From assembly GCA_938743325.2 (NCBI GenBank), contig OW568878.1, positions 663,241-727,240 of the forward strand: a stretch of 64,000 bases of DNA, in the 5' to 3' direction. The notes beneath the pieces were generated by a model. It did no database searches and was not told the origin of the DNA. It saw only the letters and a list, made by a program, of their open reading frames with translations. Source of the stretch: Pycnococcus provasolii. Taxonomy: Eukaryota > Chlorophyta > Pseudoscourfieldiophyceae > Pseudoscourfieldiales > Pycnococcaceae. Position numbers and translations under genes: made by a program. Positions 2,272 through 55,873 of this stretch are shown here, piece by piece; within the stretch, counting starts at the first letter, position 1, and each line of letters opens with the position of its first letter.

Positions 2272-2526
2272 CGAGCCTGTTCATCCAGAGCCCTTTAAGG
2301 CGATCCTAGCCTTATGTGTTGCCAGCATACATGTTGCGTTCAAAGAAATGATCAAACCAAGTTTTTGTGCATCACAGGACCTGCTCAGGCCCGTCCCCTC
2401 TTTTTGATATTTTTTTGGCTGCACAACTTCCTACCAGGTACCGGGTACCCCTCTTCAATTTTCAATTTTCAGTAATTTTGATCAAATTTTGATTTGTCTT
2501 TTGAGATCATTCTGGAATCAATCGTC

Positions 2527-3567
2527 ATGGCGTCCTCTTTGATAATGTCCATCGCCCTCATCGCTTCCTCCTCACTCACGTTAGTGGCGGCGCAACCTGC
2601 GACGTCGCCATCGTGCCTTCCGTTCCCGCGCATTGAAGTACGCGGTGGATCGCGCATTCGTGTCGATCCAGATCAAGTTCAAATCACCATCGAAGCGACG
2701 GCGACACGTCGCAACGCATCCATAGCGTCGGAACTAGTCGCGGGTGCAGTCGCATCCATCAAGGACGAACTGACCGGCACGTCGGGCGGATTTGATTCCG
2801 TCGTCAGTCTCAGCTACCGCGGTCCGGATCTGCAGTACAAGTGGGTCAGTTCCGCGACGCCTGGACAAAGCGACGTTCGCGTGCCTGTCGGGTACATGTA
2901 CCGCGAAGTCCTCCTGGTAACCGCTTCCATCGACGTCAACGACACTGACGCTGACGCTGACGCTGAAGAAGACAAAGGAGACGCCGCAAGTACCGCAGCG
3001 ACGGCGTCACTCACGAAGTTTGCGAAGACAGCTGCGACGACTGTCGAGACGATCATTCAGAACACCGCCGAGACGGCGTCCGAAGAGAGCGAATCTGCCG
3101 CGTCGTCGACGACGTACACGAATCCCACTGCTGCTTCGGCAGATTCCAAACAAGGGTGGGATCCTGTCCCATCTCTTGACGACGGAAGCCCGAAGGATCC
3201 GCTCGTGTCTATCCAAAGCGTGAAGTACGGCTTGACGCCTAAAAGTCAAGCTTCGTCCGCCCTTCGTGCGCGCAGGCTTGCGACGACTGACGCGAAGAAG
3301 AAGGCTAGCGTTCTCGCGGAGTCGATGAGCCTGAATCTGGGCGAGCTGCTCTACGTGACAGACTTTGACTCCACGCCCATCACCACCAGCAACGATGTCG
3401 GCCGAGCAAAGGAGGTGTCGGCCGATTCGATGATGAGGGCATCCTTTGCCCCTCCTCCCATGTACGGTGGTGGGGGCGGTATTGCTGCTCGTGGTCCTGG
3501 CGGCGATCCCATGAAGCAGACGTTTACGGCGGATGTCTCAGCAGCTTTCAAGGCAAGCAGCAGTTAG
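2527..3567 (+). CDS. Secreted SIMPL (DUF541)-domain protein, copy 2
   Basis: 346 residues, same architecture as the preceding gene: signal peptide, IEVRGGSRIRVDPD motif, acidic Ala/Thr-rich insert, then the second half of the SIMPL fold ending FTADVSAAFKASSS. Most of the two proteins is identical. Differences cluster in the KDELTGTSG loop, the insert (the poly-Ala run is missing here) and the region before the last strand, where copy 2 has a Gly-rich PMYGGGGG loop. The 3' flanks also match in part (TTATGTGTTGCCAGCATACATGTTGCGT-like sequence follows both stops), so the duplication included downstream DNA. The recent tandem duplication is seen directly. Function is unknown beyond the fold assignment. 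Confidence 0.75.
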   Translation: MASSLIMSIALIASSSLTLVAAQPATSPSCLPFPRIEVRGGSRIRVDPDQVQITIEATATRRNASIASELVAGAVASIKDELTGTSGGFDSVVSLSYRGPDLQYKWVSSATPGQSDVRVPVGYMYREVLLVTASIDVNDTDADADAEEDKGDAASTAATASLTKFAKTAATTVETIIQNTAETASEESESAASSTTYTNPTAASADSKQGWDPVPSLDDGSPKDPLVSIQSVKYGLTPKSQASSALRARRLATTDAKKKASVLAESMSLNLGELLYVTDFDSTPITTSNDVGRAKEVSADSMMRASFAPPPMYGGGGGIAARGPGGDPMKQTFTADVSAAFKASSS

Positions 3568-22878: not shown

Positions 22879-23079
22879 TGTGGAGAGAGGGGTGAGTCCG
22901 CGATCCGATCCGCGATCCCTAGGTGCGATCCGATCCCCGATCCGATCCCCGAAACAAACACAAGGAATAAACACAGGAGAATGGGTTTCACATCCCGTGA
23001 ACCCCCAGAGGGTTTCACATCCCGCGCCCTTATTATTGCCCTCCTGTAATTCAAACGATCATTATTCACAATCTCTACA
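22879..23079 (+). repeat. Right LTR of the small retroelement
   Basis: 201 bp identical to the left LTR. It ends 203 bp upstream of the NAD synthetase ATG. A frame opening inside this LTR (near 22880) runs without a stop into the NAD synthetase coding frame. Confidence 0.93.
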
Positions 23080-23281
23080 GGGGGGCCCGGGAAATTCTAA
23101 TTCGATCCGTACGGGTATTGTTTTCATCGGGGTAGAAAAACAACTCGAAAAGAAAAGTCGGAGAATTAGGACTGAGAGGAGGAGAAATTCTCTAAAAGAA
23201 AGGGGGAGGCTTTTTGACCTCGCCTCCCTCCCCTCGGCCCGGCTGCGCATCCCCCCCAGAATCCGTTCCATTCTGCTCGTC

Positions 23282-25405
23282 ATGCCCCACCCCACGTCGT
23301 CCCGCTACTGCTCGCAACTACCTCGCTGCTGTGTCGTTGGCGTCGCCACGCTGAACCAGTGGGCGCTGGACTTCGAGGGTAACTTGCGTCGAATCAAAGC
23401 TTCGATTTCACGTGCGCGGTCACTTTCATGCACCTACCTCCTCGGCCCCGAGCTCTCCGTCACGGGATACGGATGCGAAGATCACTTCCTCGAACTTGAC
23501 ACAGAAACGCACTCTTGGGAAGCACTATGCGCTTTGCTCCGTGACGGATTCACCGAGTCCATCGTCGTCGACGTGGGCATGCCCATCGTGCACAGAGGCG
23601 TGCGCTACAACTGCCGCGTCGTCATGCTCGACGGGAAAATCCTACTCATAAGACCCAAGCGGTGCTTAGCGGATGACGGAAACTACAGAGAACCGAGGTA
23701 CTTCACGCCGTGGAGACGAACGAACACGGTGGAAAATTATCACCTTCCTGACGTCGTGCGTGCCGTGCACGGCCAGGAAACGTGCCCTTTCGGAGACGCC
23801 ATCCTGCGGTTCGACGACACGACGCTCGGGTTCGAAACGTGCGAGGAACTCTTCACGCCGGATGCGCCGCACATACGACTCGCGCTGAACGGCGTCGAAA
23901 TCATTGCGAACGGAAGTGGGAGCCACCACCAACTGCGCAAACTCAACCAGCGTCTTGACCTCATACAGAGCCCCACGAGGAAAATGGGTGGAGTGTACCT
24001 GTACGCCAACTGCAGAGGGTGCGACGGCGGACGACTCTACTACGACGGATGCAGCTGCGTCGTGTCAAACGGCGACTTAGTCGCGCAAGGATCGCAGTTC
24101 GCCGTCGAGGAGGTGGAGGTCACCACCGCTCGTGTTGACCTAGACAGCGTCGTGAGCCACCGCGCGGCATTTCGATCCATGGCTGACCAGGCGTCGCACG
24201 AAACGCCTCTTGCGGAGGTCCATGTCAAGTTTCGACTATGCAGCACCGCCGAAGACTGCGTGCCGTCAGACGCCATATCACCGCACATACACGCGCCAGA
24301 AGAAGAGATCGCGCTTGGGCCCGCGTGCTGGCTCTGGGACTACCTGCGACGCAGCCGCGCGGCGGGTTACCTCCTCCCCCTATCCGGTGGTGCGGACTCG
24401 AGCTCCACCGCCGCCATCGTCGGGTCCATGTGCCAGCTTGCGTGCACGGCGGCACGATCGGACGCACGTGTTGCCTCGGACGTGCGTCGCCTCGCGCGAC
24501 TTGCGGATAATCAGCCGCTTCCCATTCCCAACAAGCTCGCCGCTTGCGTGTTCACTACGCTGTACCTTGGCACGGAGAACAGCGGCGTAGAAACGCGCAA
24601 GCGATCCGAGGAGCTTGCCAAGGAGGTGGGCGCGCGTCACATGGACGTTCGGGTAGACAGCCTCGTCGCGGCGCTCGTCGCGCTCTTTGCGGCGGTGACC
24701 GGAAAGAAACCTCGATTCAAGGTTCACGGTGGCACGATCGCGGAAAACCTCGCTCTGCAGAACATTCAGGCACGGCTGCGCATGGTTGTCAGCTTCCTGT
24801 TCGCGCAGCTGCTACCGTGGGTGCGCGGTGAGAGCGGGTTCCTGCTCGTGCTTGGCTCCGCGAACGTTGACGAGGCTCTGCGCGGCTACATGACGAAGTA
24901 CGACTGCAGCAGCGCGGACATCAACCCGATCGGAGGCATCTCCAAGGTGGATCTCAAGGCATTCCTGCGCTGGGGTGCGGATAATCTCGGCTATCCGAGC
25001 TTGGCAAAGGTGGAAGCGGCACCGCCCACCGCCGAGCTCGAGCCTCTCGCGGAAAATGGAGAAGTGGCTCAGACGGACGAGGTGGACATGGGTATGACGT
25101 ACGCGGAGTTGAGCGTATTTGGCCGTCTTCGCAAGATGGCGCGCCTTGGTCCCGTTTCCATGTTCCAGCGCCTGAGACATCAGTGGGCGAGCATGCACAG
25201 CGCGTCGGAGGTGGCCACGAAGGTGAAGCGATTCTTCACATACTACGCAATGAATCGGCATAAGATGACAACGCTGACGCCAAGTTATCATGCTGAAAGC
25301 TACTCCCCAGACGACAACCGCCATGATCTACGTCCGTTTCTCTACAACACAAAATGGCCGTGGCAATTTGCGCGCATCGACCAGCTCGCGGCGACTGGCA
25401 AGTGA
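23282..25405 (+). CDS. QNS1: Glutamine-dependent NAD+ synthetase
   Basis: 707 residues, the usual length of the eukaryotic two-domain enzyme, taking the ATG of MPHPTSSRYC. The frame is open further upstream into an LTR, but homologues start near VVGVATLNQWALDFEGN. The N-terminal nitrilase-type glutaminase shows Glu57 (GPELSVTGYGCEDHF), a Lys near 126 (LLIRPKRCLA) and Cys187 (GFETCEELFTP), the catalytic triad. The C-terminal domain has the PP-loop ATPase motif LSGGADSSSTAAIV near 367-380. It makes NAD+ from deamido-NAD+, ATP and glutamine, the last step of NAD synthesis, normally in the cytosol. It is divergent from the GT7-like gene, with the LTR element inserted in the shared promoter. Confidence 0.95.
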   Translation: MPHPTSSRYCSQLPRCCVVGVATLNQWALDFEGNLRRIKASISRARSLSCTYLLGPELSVTGYGCEDHFLELDTETHSWEALCALLRDGFTESIVVDVGMPIVHRGVRYNCRVVMLDGKILLIRPKRCLADDGNYREPRYFTPWRRTNTVENYHLPDVVRAVHGQETCPFGDAILRFDDTTLGFETCEELFTPDAPHIRLALNGVEIIANGSGSHHQLRKLNQRLDLIQSPTRKMGGVYLYANCRGCDGGRLYYDGCSCVVSNGDLVAQGSQFAVEEVEVTTARVDLDSVVSHRAAFRSMADQASHETPLAEVHVKFRLCSTAEDCVPSDAISPHIHAPEEEIALGPACWLWDYLRRSRAAGYLLPLSGGADSSSTAAIVGSMCQLACTAARSDARVASDVRRLARLADNQPLPIPNKLAACVFTTLYLGTENSGVETRKRSEELAKEVGARHMDVRVDSLVAALVALFAAVTGKKPRFKVHGGTIAENLALQNIQARLRMVVSFLFAQLLPWVRGESGFLLVLGSANVDEALRGYMTKYDCSSADINPIGGISKVDLKAFLRWGADNLGYPSLAKVEAAPPTAELEPLAENGEVAQTDEVDMGMTYAELSVFGRLRKMARLGPVSMFQRLRHQWASMHSASEVATKVKRFFTYYAMNRHKMTTLTPSYHAESYSPDDNRHDLRPFLYNTKWPWQFARIDQLAATGK

Positions 25406-25521: not shown

Positions 25522-28119
25522 TCACTTGCTTGTCTTAACCTTCGACTCAAGCTCGCGAATGCGCTCGAGAAGCCACGTCTCGCGTGACTCGAGCTCCTCC
25601 ACCGTGCGAGAGGCTGACACGTCCGCCCGCTTGCCCGTCGTTTCCATCAGGTATTCGTCCATCACCTCCTTCAAGTCTGCAATCAGGTCCTCGGCATCCT
25701 CGATACCAGCACTGATTCTCACCAAGTCATCCGTCAGGCCGCGCTCCGCTCGCACCTCCGCGGGAATGGACGCATGCGACATGAAGCAAGGCATGGAGAT
25801 CAGGCTGCTCACGCTGCCAAAGCTGACGGTGATCTTGAACAGCTTCGACTTCTCGCAGATTGCGCGGCTCGCGTTGACATCGTGCGTGTTGAACGACAGC
25901 AGGCTCCCGTACCCCGACGCCTGCCTTCGCTGCACGTCGTGATTTGCGTGCGTCTCTAGCCCAGGGTAGTGCACGCGCGAAACGAGCGGGTGCTTTTCGA
26001 GGAAGCGCGCAATCTTCATGGCGTTATCCGACTGCTTGTCCATGCGAAGCTTCATCGTCTTAATTCCTCGAATGCTCAGCCAGCAGTCGAAAGGAGAAGC
26101 GGCAGTTCCCTCCGAGTTCTGGTGGAAGTAGATCTCGTCGCCGAGTTCCTTTCCCTTCGTGGTCAGCAGGCCTGCGGTGACGTCACTGTGTCCCGCGATG
26201 AACTTCGTTGCCGAGGTCATCGAGACATCTGCGCCGAGATCGAGAGGGCGCTGGTACACGGGCGCCATGATGGAGTTATCCACGCAAATGACGGTGTCCG
26301 GATTCGCCTTCTTAGCCATGGCCGAGATGCGCTGCAGGTCGATCACCTGCATGCGCGGATTCGTCGGCGACTCGAGCATGAGCAGCTTCACCTTGTTCTT
26401 GTTCAGCGCCGACTCCACCGCATCGAGGTCTGACATAACAACGTGCACGACATTGATATCCTGCTTCGGAAGCACGGAGCCGAGCAGGCGGCTCGTTCCA
26501 CCGTAGATGTCGTCGCCGGCGAGAATCGTTTCTCCGCTGCGCACAATACGAGTCACCGCGGTGAGTGCCGCCATACCGCTCGCAAAAGCGAAACCTCGGT
26601 CACCACCCTCGAGCTCAGCAATGTGGTGCTCGAGTTGGGCCCGCGTGGGATTGCCACTTCGCGTGTAGTCGTACGGCCCCATCGAAACGGCATCTGGCTG
26701 CTTGAACGTTGCTGTCTGATATAGCGGCGGAGCCACCGCGGCGTACGGATCGTCGCACGGATCCGTGGGGTGCACGAGTCTCGTGTCCATGCCCCAGGAG
26801 TCTTTTCCGGTGCCGCGGGAGGTTGAGGGTGCACCATTCGACTCGGGCATTCCTCCTGACGATGCGGCGAAAATGGACGAGGGTGCGGTTGCAGAATCCG
26901 CCGAGTCACGCGGAGGCGCCTTAGCGGCCATGTCCTGAAGATCTTTCCACAGATTCGCTTCCACTTCGATGGATCCGGCGCGCTCGTTCGCATCCTCGAC
27001 GCGATCTCCTCTCTCGCCGGGCAGGAGAATCTCTCCATGATCGGGAAGGGGCTCGCACTTCTTCACGCGTCGGCACACCGTGTCCACGCGTCGTTGGAAC
27101 TCGTCAGCCGTCCATCCCAGCTGCTTCGGGTCGATGCACACGACAAGGTTTCCCCAGCTCTTCTTCGCCTTCTTGTCTTCGATGGCTGCATTCGTCAGCG
27201 CTCCTCCGAGGAGCTCAACAAGCAGCGCCAGAGACGACCCCTTGTGGCCTCCGTCAAAGACGCGGATGGCACCACCGTCGAGCACCTCAGACGGGTCGGT
27301 GGTGACACGGCCTGCGGCGTCCTGCGCGACACCTTCTGGAATTTTCCGGCCGGCTGTTTTTGCCTCAAGCAGCCCGAAGAGCGCATACGCGGACGTTGCG
27401 AGGTCCATGACGAGCGGGCTGGACGTGTCTGAGGTTGGAAATCCTGCGGCGATCGGGTTCGTCCCGAATAGCGCCTCCTTGCTTCCGTACGGCGCGACGA
27501 ACTCCGGGCTCTGCGCGAAGGCGAGGCATATGACGCCTTGCTTCGCCGCCTGTCTGCAGTAGTACCCGAGCGCGCCTGTGGATGTGGACGTGTTGTGCGT
27601 TCCCACGATTCCCACACCGGCGCTCTTCGCCTTTTGCACCGCCATTTCCGTTGCGCGATACAGGACCGCCATGCCCACTTCTCTGTTTCCGTTGATGCGC
27701 GCGCACGTCGCGGTATCGTGCTCGACGCGCATGGGCGTCGCATCTTCGTTCCTCGCGAGTCCGTTGGTTGTGATTTTGATGATTCCCTGGTTGTTTCCCC
27801 TCATTTGCGCGTACATCATGACGTCAAGGAGCACGGCGGCGTCGTTGGCGCTGTACCCGATGGTTCGTATGGCGTCGAGCGCGGTATCTCTGAGCTCCTG
27901 CATGTCGACGAGCACATCTGACGACGATGAACCCGAGCCTGACGAGTTCATGATTGCTTGGAGCGACGGCAGCAGAGGACGAGCAGCAGAGCGAGAGCGA
28001 GAGGAGGAAGAGCGAGCAGATGAAGACCCACGCAGAGGAGAAACACCACGAGCAACACGACGAGCAGAAGCAGAAGACGAGGACGAGGAGAAAGATGACG
28101 AAGACAAGAGTGAAGTCAT
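25522..28119 (-). CDS. Fusion: LDH2/malate-lactate dehydrogenase-type domain + cystathionine beta-lyase, plastid-targeted
   Basis: 865 residues in one uninterrupted frame. The Ser/Arg/Ala-rich start (residues 1-55) looks like a plastid transit peptide. Residues about 70-385 match the LDH2/MDG2 oxidoreductase fold (YAQMRGNNQGI, GIVGTHNTSTSTGALGYYCR, FGTNPIAAGFP, DGGHKGSSLALLVELLGGAL), which uses NAD(P)H with 2-hydroxy or 2-oxo acids. A polar linker covers about 385-440. Residues about 445-830 are a plant-type cystathionine beta-lyase (PYDYTRSGNPTRAQLE, SGMAALTAV, LESPTNPRMQ, DNSIMAP), with the PLP lysine in SATKFIAGHSD near 639. Beta-lyase makes homocysteine, pyruvate and ammonia for methionine synthesis. 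A short coiled-coil tail follows. It converges with NAD synthetase, 116 bp apart. Confidence 0.9.
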   Translation of the reverse strand: MTSLLSSSSFSSSSSSASARRVARGVSPLRGSSSARSSSSRSRSAARPLLPSLQAIMNSSGSGSSSSDVLVDMQELRDTALDAIRTIGYSANDAAVLLDVMMYAQMRGNNQGIIKITTNGLARNEDATPMRVEHDTATCARINGNREVGMAVLYRATEMAVQKAKSAGVGIVGTHNTSTSTGALGYYCRQAAKQGVICLAFAQSPEFVAPYGSKEALFGTNPIAAGFPTSDTSSPLVMDLATSAYALFGLLEAKTAGRKIPEGVAQDAAGRVTTDPSEVLDGGAIRVFDGGHKGSSLALLVELLGGALTNAAIEDKKAKKSWGNLVVCIDPKQLGWTADEFQRRVDTVCRRVKKCEPLPDHGEILLPGERGDRVEDANERAGSIEVEANLWKDLQDMAAKAPPRDSADSATAPSSIFAASSGGMPESNGAPSTSRGTGKDSWGMDTRLVHPTDPCDDPYAAVAPPLYQTATFKQPDAVSMGPYDYTRSGNPTRAQLEHHIAELEGGDRGFAFASGMAALTAVTRIVRSGETILAGDDIYGGTSRLLGSVLPKQDINVVHVVMSDLDAVESALNKNKVKLLMLESPTNPRMQVIDLQRISAMAKKANPDTVICVDNSIMAPVYQRPLDLGADVSMTSATKFIAGHSDVTAGLLTTKGKELGDEIYFHQNSEGTAASPFDCWLSIRGIKTMKLRMDKQSDNAMKIARFLEKHPLVSRVHYPGLETHANHDVQRRQASGYGSLLSFNTHDVNASRAICEKSKLFKITVSFGSVSSLISMPCFMSHASIPAEVRAERGLTDDLVRISAGIEDAEDLIADLKEVMDEYLMETTGKRADVSASRTVEELESRETWLLERIRELESKVKTSK

Positions 28120-52297: not shown

Positions 52298-55200
52298 ATG
52301 GCGGCTCGCTCCGTAGGACGTGATGCGACGACACTGCACTCGGTGAGGAAAACGGTGAAGAGGCACTGGGTGCTTTTCCTGCTGCCACTTGTTGCCGCAG
52401 CAGCAGCTGCGGTCATCTGGTTCTGGGTGTGGTACGAGGATATGGCGTCGCAGAGCGACGACAATAATGCAACGAATTCTTCATCATCGGCGAAGGGCTC
52501 CAAATTTCCTGGCTTTGGGAGCGGCGAAACGGCGACCGTCCGGGCGTACGATCCAGAACAGGCAATCAGCCAGCTCAGAGCTGAAAATGTCCTCCGAAAT
52601 GTCAGCAGCAGCAACACCGGCGACGACGACAATTACAACACCAATTGGTTCAGCTGGGGTTGGTCTGTGATGGGTTTGCTGGCTCTTGACAATAACTTGG
52701 CGTGCGGAGCGACAGAGAACACCGCAGGGATGATTCGTGGAATGGAGAAGCTTCCCGCGAACCTCGTCGATGACAACGTCATGAACATGCTCGCGATGTT
52801 CGATGCGACGGGATACAGGCCGTGGATGCAAAAATGTGGCTTTGCTAATTACGGCATCAACGACACGCAGTGTCCCGTGTGCTTCGACTGGGTGCCCAAG
52901 TACGGCGTCAAAAATCTCGACATCCGCTCCGACGGCGTGGTTGTTGGCAAGACGTGGGATGAGGCGGACCTCAGCGACGAAGTTTGGATCGATCAGGTCA
53001 TCAACGACGGCATGGCGAGCGCGTACCGTCGCAGGCGCGAGCCGTTCAATCGCATACCCGCTGAAAGCATGCTAGTGCTCAGCTCGCATGGCAACGCCTG
53101 GGAGAGCTTCGCGGAGGACTGGCGGTGCTATCCAAGGCAGAGATTTGGCAAATGCAAAGCGGTGCAACCTTTGCCAAATACGATTCAGGGCGTGCGCGAC
53201 GGCATTCGCAACTTCAATAATGCCAATAGTAATGCTTCTGCGGCATTTATGATGCCTGAGCTCAATCGGCTGGGGATTGTGATGTTTGACGCGTGCTTCA
53301 TGGGAGCTGCCGAGGTAATCAGTGGATTCGTTGGAACGACGAAAGTGTACATCGGCTCTCTGTTGACGATTCCCGCGCACGGGCAAAACTACAAGGAGAT
53401 CATCGGAAAGATGGCGTCGACGCCAAATGTTACGGCGCAGCAGATGGGAAAGCTCATTCCCGACACCTATCTCGACTTTTGCACGTCTTCCAAAACGCTG
53501 CCATGCACACTCGTCAGCGTCGACATGGAGAAGTGGGTGCAGTTCGAGGCACGCTTCGGCGTGTTCATTCAAACGCTCATCAGTGCCGTGGCACCTAACG
53601 TGGCGATTGAGGGCGTGAAATCTACGAGTCCGGACGACGGCGGCGGCCTTGCATTCAGTAGGCAGATGATCAACGGCATCGCGCTCGCGTCAGGCAACTC
53701 GTACCAAGTAAGCCTCGAGAACAGTGTCGTGGCCGTGGACGTGGGAAACTTTCTGCAAAATCTCGCGACGTCACCGTCGGTGCAAGTCAGGTCTACGGTT
53801 GGTGCCGCGGCAGGCGATGCGCTTACGGCGTACAGGGATTCCATCCTCAACTACCGCTCTGATCGGACGGCGCCACTCACCACTGGCATCGACTTGTATT
53901 TCCCCAACAAGTGGCCGAGTGGCGATAAGGTGGAGGTTGCCGAGCTGTACGAGGGAATGTTCAACGTCAGCTTCATCGCGAGGCGATGGGGAGGTTTCCT
54001 GCGTGACGTTTACTTTCCCATCTCGAACGAAATCAAGGAGAGCGACATCGACACGAAATTCGGGGCAGCGTCCGCAGCACTTACAATCTACCGCGCATCC
54101 CCAGGTACGGTCTTGCAGACTGCGATGATCAACGGAAATATCCCGAATAGCACGGATCCTGGCGTGTGGTCGTACGAGGTGGTGACCGAGGGAGGCGTGG
54201 CGGCGCAGGCATCTGTGTTTGTGGGATTGCGTGTCACGGAGCAGGAGAAAGATCGTAATGGGCGGATCACCACCGTTTCGGGTGCCGACTACGCAACCAC
54301 GTGGCTGACATATTACCAGGGCGTCGTGAACTACGTCAGTTCCCCTTCAGGACCGACGACGAGCATCTCTTTCACCTGGAACGAGGTATTCGTCAGCTTG
54401 ATGAGCAACAACTCTGAGGCGCTAGCGACAACGTGGATCGTGGACTCAAGTCCAGAAACGAAGCTGATTACCGCTTACGTCATGTACGCGCCTGACGAGT
54501 GCGGCGCATGTGCCTGTCCGGAGGACAAGTTGCAGCTGGGCAAGCTGCAGTTCTTGTTCAACACCACCGGCGTTCCTGTCACTTCGAGCGAGGGTGTGCT
54601 GTACGTGAGTTCCAGCGGCTTTGATGCGGGTTCTTATGCGAACGAAACTGCAGCCGGTATCGACGCGGACTTGCTCTCCTCTGCCACGTCAGATCTTTCG
54701 GAGGAACAAATTGCGGCTGCGGTGAAAACGTACACAAGTGAAGTGACCAAACAGATGGGAGGCGCGATCATCCCCTTAACGATGACGACGACGAAAGCGC
54801 AGCAAGATCAGATTGGAGTTCTCGTCGTTCTTGGACAGAACATGGGTGGTGGCGGCGGCTTATCCATGGGTGGTAGCGCCACACCCATCGACATGTTTGG
54901 TGTCGACGCGATCTGGGGTGCGGCGAGCACCGTCTCGCAATTCGGTCTCATCGGATCGGATTTCGACGCGCGTAAATGTTTTGCGTGGGGAATCGATGCA
55001 GCGCCCGTGCAACCTATATTGCGCACGCTCGACGACTCCGTCAGGTTGCTCGTCGACCACAACGACGACGAGGATGTGCGCGTCGTAAATCGAACGACAG
55101 GATTGTTTGAGGTGACGACGAAGCTTGGCAAGAGCGTTTCGGTGACTCCTGAGCTGGCTACGATTGCAGTCGATCCTACTGGCAGCATAAGTTTCACGGA

Positions 55201-55807
55201 CAATCTACTGACGCAAGGCGTGGAGGTGGAGGTCACGGACGAAGTGTACAGCGAAGCGGATAAAAACGCCCTGGCGGCTGCGCGGATCATCGGACGATCG
55301 CCACAGCCTTGTCCTTTGGAGCTTGTGGGTCAGTGGATTGGTGGATCGGTAGTCACCATTGATCCAAGCACTGACGCGGCTCGTTCGATGAGCGGCTTGA
55401 TGCTTGCGGTGTTTGAAGGCGGCACAGGTGAAATCTACATGGAAGTACCTGAAGCGTTCTATGGCGGCGGCGGGTTCCAGGATTACTGCGTGATGTCGTG
55501 GTGCGGCGTTCCTGGCAACTATTCTGAGGCGGCGGCCAGTGGATTTGTCGTCACACAAACTGGAATGTGCATACGGTACGACCGCGTGGGCAAAAATCTC
55601 ACGGCTCAGGTGACGCTAAAGGACGGGTGTCCGACGAATCGGAAACCACCTGCTGACATCGTCGACAGCTACAATCTTGCGACATGGGATGATGCGGAGG
55701 AGGCGGCTAGTGGTGGTGGGCGCTTACAAAATCCCATGTCCATGTCCACGATAGGCAACACGGTGTGGGTGGATGGCTTTGTTGTGAAGGAGGAGGAGAA
55801 TGGTGGA

Positions 55808-55843
<36 letters not shown>

Positions 55844-55873
55844 GGATCGAATAATAATGCATGGACCTGCTAG
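52298..55873 (+). CDS. Membrane-anchored clostripain-like (C11) cysteine peptidase
   Basis: 1191 residues. A basic N-terminus and one helix (WVLFLLPLVAAAAAAVIWFW, about 24-43) anchor it; the rest is outside the cytosol, with many N-x-S/T sites. The C11 catalytic pair is visible: His264 in MLVLSSHGNAWESF and Cys333 in IVMFDACFMGAAEV, followed by VYIGSLLTIPAHGQNYKEII, the usual downstream motif. C11 peptidases cut after Arg or Lys and belong to the caspase-like clan. The C-terminal 600 residues (beta-rich; segments CGACACPEDKL, DYCVMSWCGVPGN) are unassigned and may be sandwich domains. A poly-Gly run near the end leads to WTC. C11 enzymes are mostly bacterial; a eukaryotic, membrane-tethered form is notable. 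Confidence 0.8.

Follow-up and report, generated by a model that had tools for sequence, protein, structure and literature searches.

Cystathionine beta-lyase (CBL) cleaves cystathionine to homocysteine, pyruvate and ammonia, and the reaction passes through 2-aminoacrylate and 2-iminopropanoate. The described systems closest to the locus reported here are the plant plastid CBL (TIGR01329; Arabidopsis structure 1ibj) and the LDH2 family (PF02615), the latter with ComC (L-sulfolactate dehydrogenase, 2x06), AllD (ureidoglycolate dehydrogenase, 4fjs) and DpkA (delta1-piperideine-2-carboxylate reductase, 1wtj). Besides, fused sulfur-pathway enzymes are found in algal and protist sulfate assimilation (ATPS-APS kinase, ATPS-APR and ATPS-pyrophosphatase); unlike the locus described below, the fusions in the portion of PMC2275785 consulted include no CBL or LDH2 partner, and the words "cystathionine" and "dehydrogenase" do not occur in the main text of that paper. 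In a stretch of 64,000 nucleotides from Pycnococcus provasolii (Chlorophyta; assembly GCA_938743325.2, contig OW568878.1, positions 663,241–727,240; hereafter the window), one open reading frame (ORF) was found to join a complete LDH2-type dehydrogenase domain to a complete CBL domain (Table 1). Both Pfam domains scored well above their curated cut-offs. A frame of 866 codons would stay open by chance with a probability of about 3.6e-14 at the GC content of the window (0.578), and it is therefore not a chance product.

Our preferred explanation, to which we assign a probability of roughly 0.6, is that one nuclear gene encodes a single polypeptide that would be imported, most likely into the plastid. 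Its C-terminal half would be an ordinary, active CBL dependent on pyridoxal phosphate (PLP) and would serve methionine synthesis as the CBL of this genome, and its N-terminal half would be an Ldh_2 fold in which NAD(P)(H) binding persists while the residues for proton relay and substrate anchoring are missing, and thus not an ordinary dehydrogenase.

The initial annotation of this DNA had proposed one 865-codon frame joining an LDH2-type dehydrogenase to CBL, and this was confirmed with exact coordinates and with both domains complete. It had also placed the lyase in the plastid. The identity of the lyase held, while the location is probable from the composition of the presequence, which contains 23 Ser, 8 Arg and no Asp or Glu in 56 residues; the fusion protein is thus probably plastid-targeted. 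Its remark that no widely described enzyme has this domain order agreed with our full-text literature searches, in which no LDH2-CBL fusion was found among the titles and abstract openings listed; none was present in the portions of PMC2705460, PMC4523565 and PMC2275785 consulted either. Both families are known ones, combined here in a new architecture that was seen in one genome.

Table 1. Positions of the fusion gene and its parts in the window.
Feature	Residues	Coordinates	Strand	Details
Whole fusion ORF (protein P0001)		25522..28119	minus	ATG at 28119; 865 codons plus stop; no internal stop
N-terminal presequence	1-56	27952..28119	minus	Transit-peptide-like by composition; Ser/Arg-rich
Ldh_2 (PF02615)	71-395	26935..27909	minus	Profile 1-333 of 333; 282 bits; E 7.9e-84
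Altered motif 1	108-115	27775..27798	minus	GNNQGIIK (family usually SHGxxR)
Altered motif 2	174-187	27559..27600	minus	THNTSTSTGALGYY (family usually NH/SH/TH before xG)
Kept NADH contacts	Thr220, Pro222, Asp239	27403..27462	minus	AllD Thr156, Pro158, Asp174
Kept NADH contact	Lys293	27241..27243	minus	In GGHKG; AllD Lys224
Kept NADH contact	Gly368	27016..27018	minus	AllD Gly306
Linker	396-444	26788..26934	minus	49 residues; Ser/Ala/Pro-rich; open in frame
CBL domain, Cys_Met_Meta_PP (PF01053)	445-820	25660..26787	minus	Profile 1-380 of 381; E 5.2e-136
Lysine of SATKF	Lys639	26203..26205	minus	Aligns with the lysine of SATKF in 1ibj
C-terminal extension	821-865	25525..25659	minus	45 residues after CBL

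The cystathionine beta-lyase half

The C-terminal half passed the eukaryotic CBL equivalog TIGR01329 (523.5 bits against a cut-off of 487.5; 526 bits in the genome search), and its nearest solved chain was Arabidopsis CBL 1ibj (461.7 bits). The YDYTR, VDNSIM, SATKF and VRISAG segments of the PLP site were identical in the alignment with this chain, including Tyr485 and Arg487 of YDYTR. We take the aligned SATKF lysine of 1ibj to be its PLP lysine, Lys278, and Tyr485, Arg487 and Lys639 of the fusion to be the PLP-site Tyr and Arg and the PLP lysine. The lyase half thus appears to be a real CBL, predicted to be active on cystathionine. It resembles the plant plastid CBL in its complete lyase domain, in these identical segments and in its nearest structure, but differs from that enzyme in the whole Ldh_2 domain on its N-terminal side and in the 45-residue extension on its C-terminal side. 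Residues 839–864 of this extension form a helix in a low-confidence structure model.

Six TIGR01329 matches were found in the whole genome. Since only the fusion exceeded the cut-off (the other five scored 286.7, 218.6, 215, 109.9 and 86.5 bits), it most likely supplies the CBL step of this alga. The wider PLP family gave 10 matches, five of them strong: judged by their best NCBIfam models, the four besides the fusion look like an O-acetylhomoserine sulfhydrylase above its cut-off (L006), a protein of the cystathionine gamma-synthase type below cut-offs (L005), and two further gamma-family proteins, L008 and L007 (the latter scored as a fragment), which also stay below the cut-offs.

Residues lost and kept in the dehydrogenase half

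Residues of known importance in AllD, as given in the portion of PMC3527362 consulted, were mapped onto the fusion by alignment. In that source the H116A and R48A variants of AllD are inactive, and both catalytic His residues are described as invariant across the family members that it aligns. In motif 1 of the fusion, the AllD positions His44, Arg48 and Ser43 are occupied by Gln111, Lys115 and Asn, respectively, and the segment that follows, with Tyr52, was deleted. In motif 2, Ser180 stood at the site of the catalytic His116, and one residue was inserted. Four His residues are present in the Ldh_2 domain, none of them at either catalytic site; the only one near either motif is His175, five residues before the His116 site. 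The AllD contacts to NADH listed in the same source (Thr156, Pro158, Asp174, Lys224 and Gly306) were all identical in the fusion (5/5). On the substrate side Ser140 was kept and Asp141 was replaced by Pro. The fusion retained 40 of the 51 family-conserved columns, close to the 42 retained by AllD itself, and the Ldh_2 fold is therefore probably maintained.

The replaced positions were conserved in other prokaryotic members: His44 in 39/39, His116 in 37/39 and Arg48 in 30/39, in rows chosen by likeness to the fusion and thus not a fair sample of the family. These 39 were counted from 49 prokaryotic rows after eight proteins without both His were set apart and two rows were dropped, namely L041, which lacks motif 1 and keeps His116, and L055, a 233-residue piece that keeps His44 and has no His at the His116 site. 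The best solved relative of this half was 2x06 (146.9 bits). None of the five listed NCBI equivalogs for LDH2 proteins reached its cut-off (0/5), the best being sulfolactate dehydrogenase with 199.3 bits against 500.

The fusion is thus like the LDH2 family in its full-length match, its NADH contacts and its conserved columns, and unlike it in the replaced or missing His, Arg48 and Tyr52 and in passing none of these equivalogs. The catalytic loss is selective, as judged from the alignments: cofactor contacts and conserved columns stay. Since the equivalents of His44, His116, Arg48 and Tyr52 are gone, the LDH2 half would not be a normal 2-hydroxyacid or 2-oxoacid dehydrogenase. It is best read as a remodelled NAD(P)-binding module in which catalysis is changed or lost, and it is predicted to bind NAD(P)(H). 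The initial annotation had suggested that it might reduce pyruvate or 2-oxobutyrate, and had itself stated that a loss of catalytic residues from this half would refute its reading. This loss was found, with both His, the substrate Arg and the second-shell Tyr replaced or missing, though all NADH contacts are kept.

Wider relatives were sought in several collections. A tblastn search of plasmids gave 735 records, all below 60% identity, and phages gave nine records. Pattern scans gave one relative among 74 pattern matches in genome contigs and none in viral contigs, and 44 of the 199 genomes sampled from the phylum of the single Bacillota match carried a match. A Haloarcula plasmid relative (L016) ranked first by coverage times identity (35.8% identity), and a Salmonella relative had more bits. 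In L016 (1503–3999) the Ldh gene comes immediately behind genes for two UxaA-family hydrolases and a putative sulfate exporter, perhaps a sulfolactate cluster. The same alga carries a stand-alone Ldh_2 gene on contig C5 (L002 1465–2640) with one intron, which begins with GTAAGT and has a length of 83 bases; its product keeps His44 and Arg48 and has Val at the His116 site.

Eight bacterial members resembled the fusion in lacking both His (L013, L015, L017, L057, L058, L061, L062 and L063). They belong to plasmids of Cupriavidus, Paraburkholderia, Paracoccus, Polymorphobacter and Pseudonocardia, and either carry no annotation beyond Ldh family oxidoreductase or lie in stretches without annotation (L017 and L061). 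All six with neighbour records were located among metabolic or transport genes, with acyl-CoA dehydrogenase, thiolase, MFS and tripartite transporters, AMP-binding proteins and an amidohydrolase as neighbours. The member from Paraburkholderia fungorum (L058) also shares the Lys at the Arg48 site. In contrast to the fusion, the eight carry bulky residues at the His116 site, and the Gly306 contact, present in the fusion, is lost in all of them. In a first tree of 46 rows, for which the bootstrap had not settled, the fusion grouped with five of the His-less members (support 91/80). In a second tree, both motif stretches were cut, five rows were added and L053, L054, L055, L056, L041 and the C5 relative were dropped; the fusion, which has a long branch, then fell outside a group (96/88) made up of the eight His-less members and three rows that keep both His, two from Haloarchaea and one from a Klebsiella plasmid (L064). 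Forcing the fusion and the eight into one clade was 9.07 log units worse and was not rejected by the approximately unbiased test (p 0.242). Shared ancestry with the His-less bacterial proteins is thus not claimed, as the grouping was lost once the motif columns had been removed.

Alternative explanations of the fusion

That both halves belong to a single polypeptide is supported by the reading frame, although the join of the domains is less certain than the domains themselves. The Ldh_2 frame reaches the CBL stop codon without any earlier stop, and inspection of the linker by eye revealed no GTAAGT-like splice donor. Codon scores were compared with those of 255 overlapping windows, each of 49 codons, drawn from six genes of the same genome (5th percentile -0.040, 10th percentile -0.007, median 0.131), and were typical for the LDH2 part (0.135) and the CBL part (0.126). 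Moreover, the sole targeting-like sequence precedes the LDH2 half, so that a CBL reaching the plastid would have to be made as the fusion; the position of this sequence argues for one polypeptide without proving it.

Several points speak against the explanation that we prefer. The 49-codon linker taken by itself would be open by chance with a probability of about 0.17, and its codon usage is weak, with a score (-0.007 per codon) close to the 10th percentile of the coding windows. The case for plastid import comes from presequence composition. If a CBL gene were interrupted by introns, each of its exons would be scored separately, and the gene could escape the genome-wide TIGR01329 search. In the dehydrogenase half, the one-residue insertion blurs the alignment at the His116 site, and His175 could in principle replace His116, although the Haloarcula relative has a His at the His175 position alongside its catalytic His. 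The AlphaFold2 models were too poor for the active site (mean predicted local distance difference test score 46.0 for the two-row and 37.1 for the single-sequence model).

Regarding what the LDH2 half does, the form of the preferred explanation that we hold to be the single likeliest is a non-catalytic NAD(P)H-binding module that would regulate the lyase by redox sensing, or assist its assembly into oligomers. This can be put forward tentatively. The selective loss of catalytic residues beside fully kept NADH contacts and 40 of 51 columns fits a catalytically dead domain, but the gene neighbourhoods of the bacterial His-less members (6/6 metabolic or transport) suggest that LDH2 proteins of this kind may still be enzymes.

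The other working form is an oxidoreductase of changed chemistry that would need no general-acid His, for instance one reducing an already protonated imine, and an iminium is the natural candidate substrate because the adjoining lyase makes one. The LDH2 half might then capture 2-iminopropanoate from the lyase and reduce it to alanine, which would save nitrogen and remove an enamine that damages PLP enzymes. CBL can indeed yield 2-aminoacrylate, a reactive enamine, and bacterial Rid genes are found clustered with those for CBL, as stated in the portion of PMC4433059 consulted. The LDH2 family also includes an imine reductase, DpkA, and an iminium that needs no proton donor would fit the loss of His together with the kept NADH contacts. 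DpkA, however, has retained the His of motif 1 (its aligned chain reads HSHGI), and this His is its assigned acid in the consulted portion of PMC3527362. Besides, four RidA-family matches above cut-off were found in the genome, so imine disposal is probably already present, and the evidence for capture includes nothing direct. We consider imine capture unlikely, and its stricter version, in which the His-less half with NAD(P)H would reduce the 2-iminopropanoate released by CBL in place and so keep the lyase clean, somewhat more unlikely. If true, the latter would offer a reductive route in place of hydrolysis by RidA, and a chemistry new for a His-less LDH2 branch.

It is improbable that the two halves are separate, either as adjacent genes that share a frame by accident or as the result of an assembly mis-join. 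The open-by-chance probability and weak codon usage of the linker would fit this, as would the fact that the fusion is known from one genome only. Against it stand the lack of an LDH2 stop before that of CBL and, on inspection by eye, of a GTAAGT-like donor in the linker. A separate lyase would also be left without any targeting-like sequence, since the only one lies ahead of LDH2. The C5 relative illustrates what a separate Ldh_2 gene looks like in this genome, with its own stop and a GTAAGT intron.

The function proposed in the initial annotation, in which an ordinary 2-oxoacid reductase would consume pyruvate made by the lyase and regenerate NAD(P)+, is quite improbable. The Ldh_2 domain is complete with its NADH contacts, its best solved relative 2x06 is a 2-hydroxyacid enzyme, and the formation of pyruvate by the lyase is established chemistry. 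These points are outweighed by the loss of both catalytic His, Arg48 and Tyr52, two of which inactivate AllD when mutated to Ala, and by the failure of all listed equivalogs. Furthermore, no CBL-like stretch was detected by tblastn (E 1e-3) beside prokaryotic LDH2 genes in any of 50 loci, with flanks of about 1.5–5 kb, or less where a contig ended (as L012 and L022 are the same gene, 49 are distinct). A role of the LDH2 half on sulfolactate or sulfopyruvate in algal sulfonate metabolism is the most remote of the alternatives. In its favour, sulfolactate dehydrogenase is both the top-scoring NCBI model and the nearest solved chain, the Haloarcula relative adjoins the hydrolase and exporter genes mentioned above, and dihydroxypropanesulfonate synthesis in phytoplankton is incompletely understood (consulted portion of PMC11131964). 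Against it, the model score lies far below its cut-off (199.3 against 500) and the catalytic His and Arg are lost.

Genomic setting and meaning of the fusion

The window forms the end of contig C18, in a eukaryotic genome assembly of 32.3 Mb in 46 contigs. The 51 light-harvesting complex (LHC) matches in this genome were all above cut-off and identify the host as a photosynthetic eukaryote; a eukaryotic rRNA unit is located on contig C2. The fusion gene is flanked in the window by a convergent gene with CN_hydrolase and NAD_synthase domains and, on the other side, by a divergent ABC1 kinase gene. The former (22880–25405, plus strand) probably encodes a glutamine-dependent NAD+ synthetase, and its end lies 116 bases from the end of the fusion gene, which is probably a coincidence.

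Elsewhere in the window, two tandem SIMPL/DUF541 ORFs (1198–2271 and 2494–3567, plus strand) showed 89% identity and look like a recent tandem duplication, and a 1191-residue ORF (52298–55873, plus strand) contains a clostripain-family domain (Peptidase_C11). On contig C31, twelve LHC matches, all of 92.2 bits, were found as two sets of six on both strands (133072–142609 and 360395–366434); these equal-scoring matches also look like recent duplication. The 18S rRNA gene on contig C2 contains a group I intron (L066 596–941), and the genome contains the rRNA pattern at two places about 16.5 kb apart, with the two oriented oppositely.

CBL carries out a step of methionine synthesis that is located in the plastid in plants. 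Through an NAD(P)-binding partner carried by the lyase itself, methionine synthesis would become linked to redox state or to the disposal of imines. This partner has lost residues called "invariant" in its family and has kept its cofactor contacts, and similar His-less members are present in bacteria. One expressed protein could probe both the function of His-less LDH2 proteins and the reason for their joining to CBL.

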